Below are positions 7,102 through 50,769 of a stretch of DNA of 64,000 bases, in pieces. Position 1 is the first letter of the stretch. Every line of letters begins with the position of its first letter. The notes beneath the pieces are model-generated. The model saw only the letters and a list, made by a program, of their open reading frames with translations, did not search any database and had not been told where the DNA came from. The stretch is from Longimicrobiaceae bacterium (GTDB taxonomy: Bacteria; Gemmatimonadota; Gemmatimonadetes; Longimicrobiales; Longimicrobiaceae). A program made the position numbers and the translations under genes. Location: the NCBI GenBank assembly GCA_036375715.1, contig DASVBS010000031.1, positions 62,001 through 126,000 of the forward strand, read 5' to 3'.

Positions 7102-8193
7102 ATGTCCCTGATCGATTCGCTGCAGCTGCCGCGATGGCTTCCGCTGTCGCTTCTCCTCCTGCCGATCATCGGCTGCTCGCAAGAGGCAGGGGAAGCCTCG
7201 CCGGGTGAGGAGGCCGCGGGAGCGCCGGAAGTGCAGGTGGTCCCCAACGAGGCGGAGAACCGGGTCGACGTGCTGGTCGGAGGGGAGCTCTTTACCGCCT
7301 ACATCTATCCCTCCACGATCAAGAAGCCGGTCCTCTATCCCATCGTCTCCGCAACCGGGCAGACGATCACGCGCGGATTCCCGCTCGATCCCAGGCCGGG
7401 TGAGCGGGTGGACCATCCGCACCACGTGGGTCTCTGGTTCAATTACGGAGACGTGAACGGGCTGGACTTCTGGAACAACTCGGACGCGATTCCGCCCGAG
7501 CGGAGGGACCATTACGGCACGATCGTACATCGGGAGATCCGCGGAACGGAGAGCGGTGCGGGCGAGGGGGCGCTGGAGGTCACCATGGAGTGGCTGAACC
7601 CCGCCGGCGAGGCACTGCTCCGTGAGGACACCCGCTTCGAGTTCCACGCCGCCGACAGCACTCGGACCATCGACCGGATCACCACGCTCACCGCGCTCGA
7701 TCAGCCGGTCACCTTCACCGACAACAAGGAAGGGGTGCTGGGGCTGCGGGTCGCTCGCGCGCTGGAGCACCCGTCCACGCAGCCCGAGGTCTTCACCGAC
7801 GCGAGCGGCAAGCCCACCAACGTTCCGGTGCTCAACAACGAGGGTGTTACCGGGAAGTACGTCACCTCGGAGGGGATCGAGGGTGAGGCGGTGTGGGGAA
7901 CCCGGGCGAAGTGGAATGCCCTCTCCGGTGTGGTGGACGGGGCGCCGGTGACGGTCGCGATCTTCGATCACCCGAGCAACACCAACCATCCCACCTATTG
8001 GCACGCGCGCGGCTACGGCCTCTTCGCCGCCAACCCCCTCGCGCCTCAGGCGATGACCGAAGGCAAGGAGGAGCCGTTCGTGCTCACGCTGAACCCCGGT
8101 GAGTCGCTGACTTTCCGCCACCGGATCGAGATCTTCTCCGGCCAGCCCACCGCCGAGCAGATCGAGACGGCGTACCAGGCCTTCGCACAGTAG
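7102..8193 (+). CDS. DUF6807 / PmoA-family lipoprotein
   Basis: The 363-residue product starts with a lipoprotein signal peptide (lipobox PIIGC, Cys at about residue 24) and a short Glu/Ala-rich linker. The body matches the DUF6807 family (often called PmoA, a name that does not imply methane oxidation): VLYPIVSATGQTITRGFPLD, then HPHHVGLWFNYGDVNGLDFWNN, FTDNKEGVLGLR and GYGLFAANPLAPQAMT. Members commonly sit in polysaccharide loci and have a galactose-mutarotase-like beta-sandwich; their reaction is not established. The His-rich HPHH segment could bind a metal or substrate. The longer reading from 6892 runs through low-complexity Arg-rich sequence, so the ATG at 7102 just before the signal peptide is chosen. 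It diverges from the GH106 operon and runs toward the 8253-8297 hairpin. Confidence 0.85.
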   Translation: MSLIDSLQLPRWLPLSLLLLPIIGCSQEAGEASPGEEAAGAPEVQVVPNEAENRVDVLVGGELFTAYIYPSTIKKPVLYPIVSATGQTITRGFPLDPRPGERVDHPHHVGLWFNYGDVNGLDFWNNSDAIPPERRDHYGTIVHREIRGTESGAGEGALEVTMEWLNPAGEALLREDTRFEFHAADSTRTIDRITTLTALDQPVTFTDNKEGVLGLRVARALEHPSTQPEVFTDASGKPTNVPVLNNEGVTGKYVTSEGIEGEAVWGTRAKWNALSGVVDGAPVTVAIFDHPSNTNHPTYWHARGYGLFAANPLAPQAMTEGKEEPFVLTLNPGESLTFRHRIEIFSGQPTAEQIETAYQAFAQ

Positions 8194-28424: not shown

Positions 28425-29447
28425 CTACTCCGGATCGCCGGCGAGTGACAGGAAGGCTGCCACCACCTGTCGATCGAATCGCTGACCCGCCTCCTCCCGG
28501 ATCAGGGCGAGCACGCGGTGGGCGGGCCAGGCCGCGCGGTAAGGGCGATCGTGGCTCAGGGCGTCGTGGAAGTCGACCAGGGCGACGATGCGAGCCAGAA
28601 GGGGGATCTCCTCGCCGGCCAGACGCCAGGGGTAGCCGCGGCCGTCCCAGCGCTCGTGGTGCGAGAGCGCGATCGCTTCGGCGGCGCGGACCAGGGGAGA
28701 GTGACCACCGGCCAGGATCCGTGCACCCAGGATCGGGTGCGTGCGCATGATCTCCTCTTCCGTCGGCAGGAGCGGGCCGGGCTTGAGCAGGATGGCGTCG
28801 GGGATGCCGATCTTCCCCACGTCGTGAAGCGGGGCCGCGCGACGCACGGTCTCCACCTCCCCCGGCGGGAGCCCCAGGCGCTCGGCGACCCGTGCGCTCA
28901 TCTCCCCCACGCGACGCAGGTGCCGGCCGGTGGGCTCGTCCCGGAACTCTGCCGCGCGGGCCAGCCGCTCCACCACCTCCACCCTCGCCTCCTCCAGCTC
29001 GGGGTTCTCCTCGCCGCCTGCCGGGCTACGGGCGAGCTCCCGACTGGTGACCACGATCTCCGTCGCGTGATCGCCGCGCTCGACCAGCCGGCCGCGCGAC
29101 TCCAGCGCGCACCACCCGCCGTCCGCGCGGCGAAAGCGGAAGTCGAGGGAGCCCTCGGTCCGCTGGCCGGCGGCGAGCTCCGCCAGTAGTGATACCGCGC
29201 CCGGATAGTCGCGCCGGTGGATCAGCTCGAAGGCGTTGCGGCCGACCAGCTCCCCTTGTTGGTAGCCGAGTACCTCTTCCACTGCCGGATTGTCGTAGAC
29301 GATCCGGCCGGTGGCATCGATGACCGTTACCAGGTCCGCGGAGGCTTCGACCAGCGCGCGGAAATCCAACCCGGCCGCGGCTGTGCCGTAAGTCGCATCG
29401 CAATTACCGGCCTGGAAGGAGCGGTGCTGGGCAGGTGTGAGCTCCAT
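28425..29447 (-). CDS. PAS domain / HD-GYP cyclic-di-GMP phosphodiesterase
   Basis: The 340-residue cytoplasmic protein has an N-terminal PAS domain (about residues 28-145: LVEASADLVTVIDATGRIVYDNPAVEEVLGY-type sequence) and an HD-GYP domain (about 160-335). The metal and catalytic residues are present: LHDVGKIGIPDAIL, THPILGARIL, and SHHERWDGRGYPWRLAGEEIPLLARI, where GYP is intact. HD-GYP enzymes hydrolyse cyclic di-GMP to GMP or pGpG. The PAS domain probably senses an intracellular cue and sets activity. It is followed 171 bp later by the epimerase on the same strand; no diguanylate cyclase is in the window. Confidence 0.9.
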   Translation of the reverse strand: MELTPAQHRSFQAGNCDATYGTAAAGLDFRALVEASADLVTVIDATGRIVYDNPAVEEVLGYQQGELVGRNAFELIHRRDYPGAVSLLAELAAGQRTEGSLDFRFRRADGGWCALESRGRLVERGDHATEIVVTSRELARSPAGGEENPELEEARVEVVERLARAAEFRDEPTGRHLRRVGEMSARVAERLGLPPGEVETVRRAAPLHDVGKIGIPDAILLKPGPLLPTEEEIMRTHPILGARILAGGHSPLVRAAEAIALSHHERWDGRGYPWRLAGEEIPLLARIVALVDFHDALSHDRPYRAAWPAHRVLALIREEAGQRFDRQVVAAFLSLAGDPE

Positions 29448-33726: not shown

Positions 33727-34907
33727 AGCGCCTTCTCGAGGCGGTTCACCGCGTCGCGCAGCGTGTCCTCGGAGTAGGCGAAGGACATCCGGAAGTAGCG
33801 ATCGTCGCCGAAGGCGATTCCCGGGACCACCCCGACGCCGTACTCGTTCAGCAACCGCTCGCAGAACTGCACCGATCCCTCACCCGGTCGGGCGAAGCGC
33901 TCGCCGCTGACCCAGAAGTAGAAGGCGCCGTCCGGCTCGAGCACCGAGACGCCGGGCAGTCGGGTGGCAAACAGGTCGAGGACGAGGTCACGGCGCGACT
34001 GGAAGGCGGCCCGCATCTGTTCCACCGCCTGGTCGACCTCGGCGCCGGCCTCGTACGCGGCCAGGGCGGCGTACTGCGCCGGGGTCGAAGCGTTGGAGGT
34101 GGTCTGGCTCTGCAGGGCGCTCAACTTCTCCGCCACCTCGGGGGAAGTGTAGGAGAACCCGATGCGCCATCCGGTCATGGCGAAAGCCTTCGAGGTGCCG
34201 TCGAGCAGGATAGCCTTCTCGGTGAGCTCGGCGGGAAGGTCGAAGATGCCCGGTGCGATCGCGCCCTTGAAGTAGATTCGGCGGTAGATCTCGTCGGAGA
34301 TGATCCACACGTCGCGCTCCCGCGCCCACTCCGCGATCGCACGAAGCTCCTCGAGCGTGTAGGTCGCGCCCGTGGGATTACAGGGAGAATTGAGCAGGAT
34401 TGCCCGGGTCGAGGGGCCGGCGGCCGCTTCCAGGCGAGCCGGGTCGACCTTGTAGTCGTTCTCCGGGTCGCCGTCCACGATGACCGGCTCGGCGCGGGCG
34501 AGCTGCACCAGCTCCGGATAGGAGGTCCAGTACGGCTTCGGGATCAGGACGGAGTCCCCTGGCCCGAAGAGCGAGAAGAGCACGTTGAACAGCGCTTGCT
34601 TGACGCCGGCGCTGACCACCACGCCGCGGGGGTCGAACCTGGCGCCCGAGGCCGCGAACCGTTCGATGTCTCGGGCGATGGCGGCCCGTAGCACGGGGAT
34701 CCCGGGCGCGGGCGTGTATCGCGTCTGCCCTTCGCGGATCGCCTTCACCCCCGCTTCGGCGATGATCGAGGGGGTGTTGAAGTCGGGTTCACCGGCGCAG
34801 AGGTTCAGCACGTCCCGGCCCTCCGCGATGAGCTGCTTCACACGCGAGGAGACCGCGATGGTCGCGGACGGCTGCAACGCGGCGATATTGGACGAGAACT
34901 GCGTCAT
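33723..34907 (-). CDS. class I PLP aminotransferase, aspartate aminotransferase-like
   Basis: The 394-residue protein is a type Ib aspartate aminotransferase. It has LCAGEPDFNTPSIIAEAG, RYTPAPGIPVLRAAIA, NSPCNPTGATY with the conserved Asn, WIISDEIYRRIYF with the Asp-x-x-Tyr pair, LDGTSKAFAMTGWRIGF with the PLP Lys, and YFRMSFAYSED with the Arg that binds the alpha-carboxylate. It interconverts aspartate and oxaloacetate using glutamate/2-oxoglutarate. Both ends overlap neighbours by 4 bp: the sensor kinase upstream and serB downstream. That places amino-nitrogen metabolism in one coupled transcript with a kinase. Confidence 0.93.
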   Translation of the reverse strand: MTQFSSNIAALQPSATIAVSSRVKQLIAEGRDVLNLCAGEPDFNTPSIIAEAGVKAIREGQTRYTPAPGIPVLRAAIARDIERFAASGARFDPRGVVVSAGVKQALFNVLFSLFGPGDSVLIPKPYWTSYPELVQLARAEPVIVDGDPENDYKVDPARLEAAAGPSTRAILLNSPCNPTGATYTLEELRAIAEWARERDVWIISDEIYRRIYFKGAIAPGIFDLPAELTEKAILLDGTSKAFAMTGWRIGFSYTSPEVAEKLSALQSQTTSNASTPAQYAALAAYEAGAEVDQAVEQMRAAFQSRRDLVLDLFATRLPGVSVLEPDGAFYFWVSGERFARPGEGSVQFCERLLNEYGVGVVPGIAFGDDRYFRMSFAYSEDTLRDAVNRLEKAL

Positions 34908-36277
34908 GAGTCTCCACCTGGAGCGGTTGTTTCAAAGCTCCGCGCCCCCTCCATGGCAGGCATGGCAGGCACGGCCAACGTGAACACGGAACCCTCGCCC
35001 GGCACGGAACGAAGGCGGATCTCTCCCCCGAGGCGATGGGCGAGGCCTTGGGAGAGGGCGAGGCCGAGCCCGGTGCCACCAAAGCGACGGGTGGCGGAGC
35101 CGTCCACCTGTCGGAACTCGTCGAAGATCGTCGCCTGATCCTCAGACGCGATCCCGATGCCGGTATCCTCCACCCTCCACAACACGAAGCCCGGCGGGTG
35201 GCGTGTTATCCCGTCCGGCTCCTCGACCTCCACGCGCAGGCGGATCGATCCGCGCGGCGTGAACTTGACCGCGTTGGAGAGCAGGTTCTGCAGGATGCGC
35301 AGGACGATCCCCGGATCGGTGCGAACCGGAATGTGCGCGGCGGTGCTCTCGATCGAAAGCTGCACCCCGGAGGCGGGCGGCCGCACGGCGGCCAGCGCCG
35401 CGCGTGCCAGGGCGTTCGCCTCGCAGAGCTCGAGCTCGACCGCGGTAGCGCCGCCTTTCAGGTGGCTCAGGTCGAGCAGGTCGTCGATGAGCGACATCAG
35501 GTTCTGCCCGGCCGCCTCGATCTTGGCGACCGCGTCCAGCGCTTCCTGGTGCAGCTCACCCGAGAGTCCCTCGCGCAGGAGATACGCATACCCCAGGATC
35601 GCCGTCAATGGGGTGCGCAGCTCGTGCGAGATGTTCGCCAGGAACTCGTTCTTCAGTCGGCGTGCCTCGGTGGCTTCGCGCCAGCGCGCCTCGAGGGCGA
35701 AGTTCTGCTCGCGAAGCTGCTCGTTGGCCCGCTCCAGGTCGTCGATGAGGTGCGCCTTCTCGGCCGTCGCGGCGAGCTGATCGGCGACCAGCCGCAGGAA
35801 GCTCCGGTCCGCCTCGTCGAAGTCGAGCGGCTCGGTAAAGTAGAAGGTGAGCGCCCCCATCGGCTTGGCCTGCGGCGAGAGCGGCACCGAGACCGAAGAG
35901 ATGAAGCCCAGCTCGCGTGCCGCCTCCCACCAATCCTCGAGCGCCGGATCCGCGAAGACCTCCGGTGCCTCCACCAGCTCGTTCTGCTGCACCGCGCGCC
36001 CGGTGGGACCGTTGCCCACTCGCACGCGCAGCGCGCTCAGATGGCCAGCGTACGCTTGCGGCCAGTTATAGGCGGCGACGACGCGAAGCAGTTCGGGGTC
36101 ACGATCGCGCAGAAATACGCACCCGAATGCCGCGCCGACGAGTGGTGCAACTCGGCCCAGCGCAAGGCGATAGACCTCTCCGGGCCGACGTGCGGTCAGG
36201 AAGGCGTGGGCAATGTCGCGGGCGGCTTGGAGCTCCCGTCCGGGCGTGTCGATAGGGAGGCAAGACCTAGGAGACAC
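34904..36277 (-). CDS. GAF-domain sensor histidine kinase
   Basis: The 457-residue soluble kinase has an N-terminal GAF domain (about residues 30-175: LVGAAFGCVFLRDRD, GNGPTGRAVQQNELVE, FISSVSVPLSPQAKPMGALTF-like), a coiled coil (ERANEQLREQNFALEARW), a HisKA domain with NISHELRTPLTAILGYAY (phospho-His), and an HATPase with NLLSNAVKFTPRG, VEDTGIGIA and FGGTGLGLALSQGLA. No membrane segment is present, so it senses an internal or soluble signal. The start is GTG at 36277; no other start upstream fits. It overlaps the aminotransferase gene by 4 bp and is divergent from HU. No response regulator is adjacent. Confidence 0.9.
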   Translation of the reverse strand: MSPRSCLPIDTPGRELQAARDIAHAFLTARRPGEVYRLALGRVAPLVGAAFGCVFLRDRDPELLRVVAAYNWPQAYAGHLSALRVRVGNGPTGRAVQQNELVEAPEVFADPALEDWWEAARELGFISSVSVPLSPQAKPMGALTFYFTEPLDFDEADRSFLRLVADQLAATAEKAHLIDDLERANEQLREQNFALEARWREATEARRLKNEFLANISHELRTPLTAILGYAYLLREGLSGELHQEALDAVAKIEAAGQNLMSLIDDLLDLSHLKGGATAVELELCEANALARAALAAVRPPASGVQLSIESTAAHIPVRTDPGIVLRILQNLLSNAVKFTPRGSIRLRVEVEEPDGITRHPPGFVLWRVEDTGIGIASEDQATIFDEFRQVDGSATRRFGGTGLGLALSQGLAHRLGGEIRLRSVPGEGSVFTLAVPAMPAMEGARSFETTAPGGDS

Positions 36278-48300: not shown

Positions 48301-50277
48301 TCAGGACACCCGGTCTGCTTCCCGCCGCTCCAGCAGCGCGTATACGGGCATCTGAGTCCCGGAGGAGGTTTCGATGATGCCGCGGGTCTCGAACTCGAAG
48401 GCTCCATGCAGAGCGGCGTACGCCGCGGGTGAGACGTGCACAGTGCCGGTCTCACCCTGCGCGGCGAGCTCCCGCGCGACTTCCGGAGCCTCTCCCCAGA
48501 GGCCGAACGCAAACCGGTCGGTTTCGATCAGGCTCGCCACCGCGGGCCCCACGTGTATGCCGATGCCGACGCGGATCGCCTCGACATCCGCGGCCCGAGC
48601 CACCCCCTCCTCGCGCAGCCTCAACGCCAGTTCCCCGATCGCCACTGCGTCCGGTTCGTCCGCGGGGTCCGCCGGAGCGCTGGTCGCGACCAGTGCGGCC
48701 CCGCCCTCCCACCGCAGCTCCACCGGCAGGTCCTGGGCGCACGCCTCGAAGGCCTCCATCGTGCCGAGCAGCCACTCCGCCAGGGCCGTGTCACCCTGTC
48801 GGGTGGCGTAGGTGGAGAGCCCCTGCAGGACGACGATCACGACGGCAAGGCTGTCCTGACTCTCCACCAGGGCGCCGCGGCCGGCGCGCAGGCGGGGTGT
48901 GAAGCGGTCGGGAACCAGACTGCGGGCGAGCCGCTCCGCCCACGCGCTCTCCTCTTCCAGCTCCTGCCGCGCCCGCCGCTGCTGCGCCCGCAGGCGGTAC
49001 AGATCGAGGGTGGCGGAGAGTCGGGCCTGGAGCAGTACGGGATCGAACGGCTTGATGAGGTAGTCGACCGCCCCCTGCTCGATGCACCGCACCACCCCTT
49101 CGATCTCGTCCATCGCTGAGGTCATGATCACCGGGACCTCCGTCGTCGCGCGATCCCGCTGCATCTGCGTCAGCACACCGATCCCGTCCAGGCCGGGCAT
49201 CAGGACGTCCAGGAGGACGAGGTCAAAGTCCTGCCGTCGAAGCAGCTCGAGGGCCGTGTTCCCGTCCTCCGCCAGCGCCACGCTGAAGCCCTGCCGTGCG
49301 AGCTGCCGGGAGAGGAGGTCCCGGTTCGTCGGGTTGTCGTCGACGACCAGGATGTGGCCATGCAACGGCGGCGCGTTCTCCTCCACGGCTCCGCCGCGCG
49401 GCAGCCCGGCAATGACCCGCGCCGCCAGCTCACGGGTGAGCCCCGCCGCGGACTGATCGATTCCGACGGCGGGGCCGTTCAGCTCGGATAACACCAGCGT
49501 CCGCAACCGCCCCGCCGCCTCCGCGATCCGGTCGACGTCGGCGAGGGTGTCCGCGTCGGCATCCTGCAAGGCCGTCCGGGCTTCGGCGCAGAGCTCGCCG
49601 AGGCGCGCGGTGGACTCGTCCATCTCCTCGCGTATGCGCCGGCGCATCGCGGCGAGCACATCGTCGGTCAGCTCCGTTTCGCCCGCGTCGGGGCGGAGGA
49701 TCTCGTTCACCAGGAGCAGGCTGCGCTGACCGGCGGTGAGGATTGCCCGGACTGGTGCCTCCCGCTCCGGCGGCAGGTCCTCCAGCAGGAGCTCGCTGTA
49801 GCCGATCACCGCGTTGAGGGGCGTGCGGAGCTCGTGTCGCAGGGTGGCGAGCAGTGCGCGGCGGAGGTCCTCGGGCGTGGGTTGGAGGTCGGCAGGTGGA
49901 GGGCTGCTCGGAGCGGCGGCCGGACGCGCGGCCTCCCTGCGCGGCGGCGCACGCCGGGGGAGCTGACGCGCGATCGCCGCCGCCGGCGGGGTGTTCGCAC
50001 GCAGTGCCGGAGGATTCTCCGCATCGGAGCCGGTTCGCTTGACGCCCTCGGGGCTGAGGTCGTAGGCCCACGCCAGGATCATTGCCAGCGGAAAGCCCAC
50101 GAGCGCGATGAGGACGACGAAGGAGTCGGTCCACGTGGGCAGGGCCAGCGCCTCCTCGGCCGCGGCCGAGACCTCCACCATCAGCCAGGCCACCACGCCG
50201 TACGCGACGGCGACGCGAGTCACCCGTCGCCGGCGGAGCTCACGCGCGAAATCTCGGACCGAAGCGATGAAGCTCAT
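48301..50277 (-). CDS. membrane-anchored HisKA-receiver-pseudocyclase hybrid protein
   Basis: The 658-residue protein has an N-terminal two-helix membrane module (VTRVAVAYGVVAWLMVEVSA, then FVVLIALVGFPLAMILAWAYDLSPEG) of a type common on Gemmatimonadota signalling proteins. Then come a Pro/Ala-rich linker, a HisKA domain (LRHELRTPLNAVIGYSELLL, phospho-His present) without any HATPase (no N, G1 or G2 box), a receiver (about residues 308-425: HILVVDDNPTNRD, DLVLLDVLMPGLDG with the phospho-Asp, IMTSAM, LIKPFDP), and a class III cyclase-like domain (about 460-650) whose first metal Asp position reads VVIVVLQGLS and whose second is also missing. It can receive phosphate but probably makes no cyclic nucleotide. 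A receiver gene lies just upstream. Confidence 0.85.
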   Translation of the reverse strand: MSFIASVRDFARELRRRRVTRVAVAYGVVAWLMVEVSAAAEEALALPTWTDSFVVLIALVGFPLAMILAWAYDLSPEGVKRTGSDAENPPALRANTPPAAAIARQLPRRAPPRREAARPAAAPSSPPPADLQPTPEDLRRALLATLRHELRTPLNAVIGYSELLLEDLPPEREAPVRAILTAGQRSLLLVNEILRPDAGETELTDDVLAAMRRRIREEMDESTARLGELCAEARTALQDADADTLADVDRIAEAAGRLRTLVLSELNGPAVGIDQSAAGLTRELAARVIAGLPRGGAVEENAPPLHGHILVVDDNPTNRDLLSRQLARQGFSVALAEDGNTALELLRRQDFDLVLLDVLMPGLDGIGVLTQMQRDRATTEVPVIMTSAMDEIEGVVRCIEQGAVDYLIKPFDPVLLQARLSATLDLYRLRAQQRRARQELEEESAWAERLARSLVPDRFTPRLRAGRGALVESQDSLAVVIVVLQGLSTYATRQGDTALAEWLLGTMEAFEACAQDLPVELRWEGGAALVATSAPADPADEPDAVAIGELALRLREEGVARAADVEAIRVGIGIHVGPAVASLIETDRFAFGLWGEAPEVARELAAQGETGTVHVSPAAYAALHGAFEFETRGIIETSSGTQMPVYALLERREADRVS

Positions 50278-50373: not shown

Positions 50374-50769
50374 TCAGGAGGGGAGGAGGGAGCGGATCTT
50401 GGTGACCAGGCGGGGGAGATCGATCGGCTTGGTATCGAAGTCGTCGCACCCTGCCTGGCGCGCGAGCTCCTCGTCTCCCGACATCGCGTGCGCCGTGAGG
50501 GCCACCACCGGGATGTTGCGCGTCGCCTCGTCGGATTTCAGCGCGCGCGTCGCCTCCCATCCGCTCAGCACGGGGAGGCTCATGTCCATCAGGATGACAT
50601 CCGGACGCCAATCCCGTGCGAGCTGGAGGCCCAGTTGCCCATCGTGGGCGACCGCGACCTCGAAGCCCTGTCGCTGCAGTCGCCGCGACAGCATGTCCCG
50701 GTTCAGCTCGTTGTCCTCGACGAGCAGGATCCTCGGCATCCGTTCTCGAGCTGGTGGCTGGTTCTGCAT
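50374..50769 (-). CDS. single-domain response regulator (receiver)
   Basis: The 131-residue protein is a CheY/DivK-like receiver: RILLVEDNELNRDMLSRRL with the acidic pair, DVILMDMSLPVLSGWEATRAL with the phospho-Asp, VALTAHAM with the Thr, and DTKPIDLPRL with the Lys. No output domain follows. Its sequence around EDNELNRDMLSRRLQRQGFEV closely parallels the receiver of the adjacent hybrid protein (DDNPTNRDLLSRQLARQGFSV region), suggesting duplication. The start may be ATG at 50769 or ATG at 50739, the latter directly before PRILLVED with GAG upstream. It lies between sucB and the hybrid gene. Confidence 0.9.
   Translation of the reverse strand: MQNQPPARERMPRILLVEDNELNRDMLSRRLQRQGFEVAVAHDGQLGLQLARDWRPDVILMDMSLPVLSGWEATRALKSDEATRNIPVVALTAHAMSGDEELARQAGCDDFDTKPIDLPRLVTKIRSLLPS

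Follow-up and report, generated by a model that had tools for sequence, protein, structure and literature searches.

A HisKA, receiver and cyclase protein without an ATPase domain

What can a signaling protein do if it carries a phospho-acceptor histidine, a receiver and a cyclase fold, and has neither an ATPase domain nor the catalytic residues of a cyclase? This question is raised by an ORF on the minus strand (positions 48301-50277, coordinates and strand confirmed) of a 64,000 nt stretch of contig DASVBS010000031.1 from a Longimicrobiaceae bacterium, hereafter the window. A Pfam scan of the encoded 658-aa protein detected HisKA (residues 139-195, E 6.7e-13), Response_reg (309-420, E 7e-30) and Guanylate_cyc (541-648, E 3.5e-13). 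Together with a structural model, this bore out an earlier note, made from the sequence alone, according to which a membrane module, HisKA, a receiver and a class III cyclase fold are joined in one chain. The reading frame can be regarded as real because relatives are 32-40% identical across its full length. The NCBIfam families among the matches listed were all reached via the receiver or kinase parts, with scores far under the cut-offs, and the PDB sequences among the matches listed align to the receiver.

The N-terminal membrane module (residues 1-82; 50032-50277, minus strand, as for all features of this protein) consists of a helix and two long hydrophobic helices (model helices 2-16, 19-44 and 49-71). 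It is the sole copy found in its genome and, by alignment, is kept in four other membrane-anchored relatives (L077, L078, L001 and L002). A Pro/Ala-rich linker follows (residues 83-134; 49876-50031), which is probably disordered (pLDDT <50 at 84-133) and leads into a first DHp/HisKA hairpin (residues 135-193; 49699-49875) detected by Pfam and modeled as helices 135-167 and 170-193. Its H-box, RHELRTP, is intact and H148 (49834-49836), in the first of the two aligned His columns, is the predicted phospho-acceptor. The receiver domain (residues 308-424; 49006-49356; Pfam and alignment) is 50-65% identical to the receivers of relatives and retains D313, D314, D357 and K409, with D357 (49207-49209) the predicted phosphorylation site from the alignment. 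The phospho-acceptor His and receiver Asp are thus both present, as previously claimed. The claimed absence of a HATPase also held, with none detected by Pfam at E<=1, such that HisKA is not followed by the HATPase_c domain of a hybrid histidine kinase. Such a domain hidden between residues 190 and 300 had been named beforehand as grounds for abandoning the earlier reading; none appeared, and the whole-protein AlphaFold2 model has helices rather than an ATPase fold at residues 205-265.

Two HisKA hairpins in one chain

Relatives were recovered by searching with the cyclase part and then with the tandem-DHp part of the protein. L081-L085 were matched by the cyclase fragment only, and L084 was interpreted as a receiver-cyclase that lacks HisKA. 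Two HisKA copies precede the receiver in each of the full-length relatives aligned. The corresponding stretch of the 658-aa protein, whose nature the earlier note overlooked, is a second, decayed HisKA hairpin within residues 200-270, with Glu217 (49627-49629) aligned in place of the phospho-acceptor His. This assignment rests mainly on position, relatives and model: the hairpin proper (residues 205-265; 49483-49665) aligns with the second HisKA copies of relatives and is modeled as helices 205-236 and 242-265. Support from sequence comparison was mixed, as the hairpin scored 17.0 bits against an HMM of the relatives' first hairpins (0 of 4727 reported shuffles as high) and 11.7 bits against a combined HMM (1 of 4639), while its 3.4 bits against an HMM of their second hairpins were not above shuffles (131 of 4539 as high). 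It is very diverged, being at most 21% identical to any relative.

The whole-protein model, which was built on a thin alignment of 16 sequences, places all four helices in succession. When residues 133-273 were folded alone with AlphaFold2, on an even thinner alignment of five sequences, they formed one four-helix unit (pLDDT 89, pTM 0.83). Both hairpins are therefore predicted to pack within one chain as a four-helix bundle whose sole phospho-acceptor His is H148, and we infer that the single-chain bundle would also be the form adopted in solution. Foldseek returned no significant PDB match for the bundle, including to HPt or Spo0B (best E 0.06), and the Pfam scan of the 658-aa protein gave no HPt profile match.

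Catalytic residues are lost from the cyclase domain of membrane-anchored members

The C-terminal domain (residues 470-651; 48325-48870), assigned from Pfam, Foldseek and the aligned catalytic columns, retains the class III cyclase fold (modeled domain versus 5o5l, TMt 0.81, E 1.3e-14, Foldseek). Class III cyclases use two metal-binding Asp and a transition-state Asn and Arg, none of which is found in the 658-aa protein. In the alignment to active relatives, V483 occupies the position of the first metal Asp, and E599 and E603 those of the Asn and Arg. The second metal and base-specifying positions, without Asp or Lys, are occupied by R522 and G526, one residue shifted in a realignment. The earlier description of a cyclase-like domain without metal Asp was accordingly correct. 

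We aligned the C-terminal parts of 14 members, eight of which were also in an earlier alignment; the replacement residues in the dead cyclases shift by one position between alignments, and only the absence of the catalytic residues is firm. Both metal Asp, the Lys, the Asn and the Arg are present in all nine members without a membrane module (L003, L004, L048, L049, L108 and L112-L115). The catalytic residues are gone in all five membrane-module members (the 658-aa protein, L077, L078, L001 and L002), with the exception of L002, where an Asp aligns at the second metal position. A motif search had suggested incomplete cyclases in L113 and L114, which we rejected since the alignment finds the residues present, with only the surrounding letters differing. 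Membrane anchoring and cyclase loss thus coincide in 14/14 members. A tree of the receivers unites the five dead-cyclase members with modest branch support (74/78), and hence the loss and the anchoring may be a single event rather than an independent association.

For the L001-L002 pair, the cyclase domain has a dN/dS of 0.46, compared with 0.06-0.09 for the membrane module, the DHp hairpins and the receiver; these ratios are rough given synonymous sites near saturation. The lowest value of all domains, 0.06, was that of the His-less second hairpin, as expected for the structural half of a bundle. The earlier note had proposed the cyclase fold as a dimerizing or binding unit; the several times faster change of the pseudo-cyclase in this closest dead pair speaks against a binding site under high constraint.

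The module is linked to a CheY-like gene in several phyla

A single-domain (CheY/DivK-like) response regulator of 131 aa (Pfam Response_reg E 1.9e-24) is encoded at 50374-50769 on the same strand, 96 bases upstream of the ORF. Its conserved link to the tandem gene had also escaped the earlier note. The CheY-like protein is 66% identical to its counterpart in L049, 64% to that in L048, 65% to that in L004, 68% to that in L109, 62% to that in L110, 58% to that in L111 and 60-65% to those in L112-L115, and only 44% to that in L003; among the other receivers of its genome, the highest identity is 47%. Identity to the L080 counterpart is 63%. L080 is the same locus as L001, where the CheY-like gene follows two kinases at the distant end of the operon. 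In L078, a CheY-like ORF (7303-7728, minus strand) lies beside a kinase and is convergent with the tandem gene. No CheY-like neighbor was found in the stretches examined of L002, L077 and L108, with the L002 and L077 contigs being short. The linkage of the partner to the tandem gene therefore extends over rhizobia, Planctomycetota and Gemmatimonadota.

In L001, L002, L003, L004, L048, L049, L078 and L112-L115, the module lies next to a kinase bearing HisKA and ATPase motifs. The Longimicrobiaceae locus has two HisKA hairpins before the receiver, the second degenerate, and the orthologous single-domain receiver gene adjacent, and no histidine kinase adjoins 48301-50277. Elsewhere in the window, a GAF-HisKA-HATPase histidine kinase, a candidate partner, is encoded ~12 kb away (34904-36277, minus strand), and a PAS and HD_5 protein, possibly of the cyclic-dinucleotide phosphodiesterase type, at 28425-29447 (minus strand).

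The earlier note had taken the domain order to be new, which did not hold. The (HisKA)2-receiver-cyclase order occurs in Planctomycetota, on rhizobial megaplasmids and in other Gemmatimonadota, usually beside the orthologous CheY-like gene and a histidine kinase, and with the small receiver gene it constitutes a module in at least three phyla. Among rhizobial plasmids in PLSDB, 78 records match the L003 protein, 76 of them over >=80% of its length. The rhizobial members are already in GenBank as cyclase-domain proteins, and the order is thus public under generic names; no paper describing the module was recognized in the open-licence literature searched, most of which was judged by title and abstract. 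Matches on viral contigs covered receiver or HisKA-receiver stretches only, none the whole protein. In Sinorhizobium meliloti AK57 (L048, 3615-5179), the annotation divides the tandem-DHp-receiver-cyclase gene into two overlapping CDS, for HisKA and cyclase proteins. This suggests a frameshift in the record; in strain M270 (L115) the gene is one 520-aa frame. Receiver-cyclase proteins without tandem DHp were seen in Chloroflexota and Acetothermia (L006, L008-L018 and L020), many directly after very long kinase-receiver ORFs (about 1100-2400 aa).

Most tandem proteins retain a single histidine

Reading both His columns in an alignment of 18 tandem proteins, we found exactly one His in 14, in either hairpin, both in two and none in two. 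These 18 represent far fewer independent events, since L049 and L112-L115 all come from rhizobia and L001 is closely related to L002. The sole His is in the first hairpin in the 658-aa protein, L078, L001, L002 and the stand-alone proteins of L109 and L110, and in the second hairpin in L004, L049, L108, L112-L115 and the stand-alone protein of L111. Both are kept in L077, from the same order as the genome studied here, and in L003 (Planctomycetota). L109 and L110 are genomes from the same family as that of the 658-aa protein, and their receiver-fused tandem proteins contain neither His.

In L109 and L110, a stand-alone tandem protein with one His is encoded directly upstream of the CheY gene, and a His is found in one or more tandem proteins of every module examined. 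The module is spread over three genes in these two genomes (L109, 5473-7466; L110, 217-1571 and upstream), encoding the stand-alone tandem DHp, the CheY-like receiver and the His-less tandem DHp-receiver. The latter proteins end after the receiver, with no output domain, and L111 is the tandem part alone. With their position beside the CheY gene, the stand-alone proteins of L109, L110 and L111 look like members of Spo0F-Spo0B pairs.

A predicted membrane-anchored phosphorelay intermediate

By a slight balance of the evidence, we favor the view that the 658-aa protein is anchored in the membrane as a phosphorelay intermediate with a fused receiver. The two HisKA hairpins would form a four-helix bundle with H148 as single phospho-acceptor, an integral counterpart to an HPt domain or to the dimeric, histidine kinase-derived phosphotransferases Spo0B, ChpT and PhyT. 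A separate histidine kinase would phosphorylate the CheY-like receiver encoded just upstream, and the CheY-like protein could then donate phosphate to H148, which would hand it on to D357 in the fused receiver, or phosphate could flow in the opposite direction, as a sink. For the soluble relatives, we expect the receiver to regulate an active nucleotide cyclase; because the cyclase is catalytically dead in the membrane-anchored lineage, output there would have to go by protein contacts or by setting the phosphorylation level of CheY.

Support for the relay comes from the missing HATPase, the intact H148 and D357 and the tandem hairpins of all relatives aligned, as well as from the CheY-like partner linked across rhizobia, Planctomycetota and Gemmatimonadota and the kinase adjoining the modules of most relatives. 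The usual single His (14/18), with the no-His proteins beside a stand-alone one-His tandem protein, also supports it; with both halves of the bundle in one chain, the loss of one His is allowed, as observed. We counted against it the diverged second hairpin, the lack of a PDB match for the bundle, the lack of an adjoining kinase, the low identity of the L003 neighbor and the three examined stretches in which no CheY-like neighbor was found. The His-less tandem-receiver proteins of L109 and L110 also count against the relay, since they indicate that a fused bundle need not carry out phosphotransfer itself in order to be retained.

These same proteins would fit a bundle that serves as a docking or decoy scaffold, mimicking a kinase DHp and binding the CheY-like protein and the receiver at the membrane, with the His a relic. 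The strong constraint on the His-less hairpin between L001 and L002 would fit as well. We nevertheless regard a scaffold as rather unlikely, given that each module examined has at least one His-bearing tandem protein, in L109 and L110 the neighboring stand-alone one, and that the hairpin retaining the His varies, which a relic would not predict. It is quite unlikely that H148 is instead the direct trans-substrate of the ATPase domain of a separate histidine kinase, with phosphate moving on to the fused receiver or to a CheY-like protein that is output and not donor. The H-box is canonical and kinases adjoin most relatives, but the neighbor retained here and beside the L111 stand-alone tandem protein is the CheY-like gene, not a kinase, and the usual target of an ATPase domain is a DHp within the same dimer.

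Lastly, the protein could be a decaying response-regulator cyclase, its cyclase dead, its second hairpin eroding and the gene in the course of being lost, without any particular mechanism. This seems very improbable: although the raised dN/dS of the cyclase domain and the divergence of the second hairpin are in keeping with decay, the 658-aa frame, H148 and the receiver site are intact, the receiver is well conserved, and the dead-cyclase form is present in five genomes, as one receiver-tree group, if with modest support. The phosphotransfer hub of the earlier note is thus upheld insofar as a phosphotransfer role is the likeliest reading.

It is a tentative suggestion, with somewhat less than an even chance of being right, that the module represents an undescribed phosphorelay class, with two DHp hairpins per chain, an asymmetric single-His bundle and a dedicated single-domain receiver, which drives cyclases across phyla and has a membrane-anchored branch without cyclase chemistry. 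If so, it would be a kinase-derived counterpart of HPt and another route from histidine kinase to phosphotransferase, in which the ATPase was dropped, the DHp doubled in one chain and one His lost, a path to an HPt-like bundle that differs from those of Spo0B, ChpT and PhyT. Single-domain receivers would also be tied to cyclic-nucleotide output in rhizobia and Planctomycetota. The members, with both His, one or none and with the cyclase live, dead or absent, provide a natural series for testing the role of each part.

Comparison with known systems

Spo0B (Bacillus subtilis) and ChpT (Caulobacter crescentus) are homodimers with a vestigial ATPase-like domain. They share with the 658-aa protein, as predicted here, a DHp-type four-helix bundle that acts as phosphotransferase downstream of a receiver, whereas the bundle of the 658-aa protein is predicted to lie in one chain, with one His, fused to a receiver and a pseudo-cyclase. 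ChpT is described as a dimeric histidine phosphotransferase (PMC3433190). PhyT of Sphingomonas melonis is a histidine kinase-derived, membrane-anchored bifunctional phosphotransferase that connects a single-domain receiver to an output receiver (PMC5898713), and it sets a precedent for the relay favored above. Both it and the 658-aa protein are membrane-anchored and have a DHp without a working ATPase, and the relay between receivers carried out by PhyT is predicted here. However, the PhyT DHp is of the HRxxN type (HWE/HisKA_2) with a degenerate ATPase domain still present, in contrast to two HisKA hairpins and no ATPase, and PhyT acts on an output receiver, PhyR, that is encoded separately rather than fused. 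The 658-aa protein has the DHp with phospho-acceptor His of these phosphotransferases (Pfam HisKA, H148) and, by Pfam and the model, no vestigial ATPase-like domain, and for the latter reason we consider that it works like Spo0B, ChpT and PhyT at most and do not file it as a member.

In response-regulator and hybrid-kinase adenylate cyclases (CyaC, L006 and L010), a receiver is likewise helix-joined to a class III cyclase, and a hybrid kinase is near many of the loci. The CyaC of cyanobacteria bears its own kinase. L006 and L010 have no tandem DHp, and the cyclase motifs lost in the 658-aa protein are intact in all three. Rhizobial WQO70103.1 (L049) has the same (HisKA)2-receiver-cyclase order, with the orthologous CheY-like gene directly upstream, but differs from the 658-aa protein in having no membrane module, the His in the second hairpin only and intact cyclase residues.
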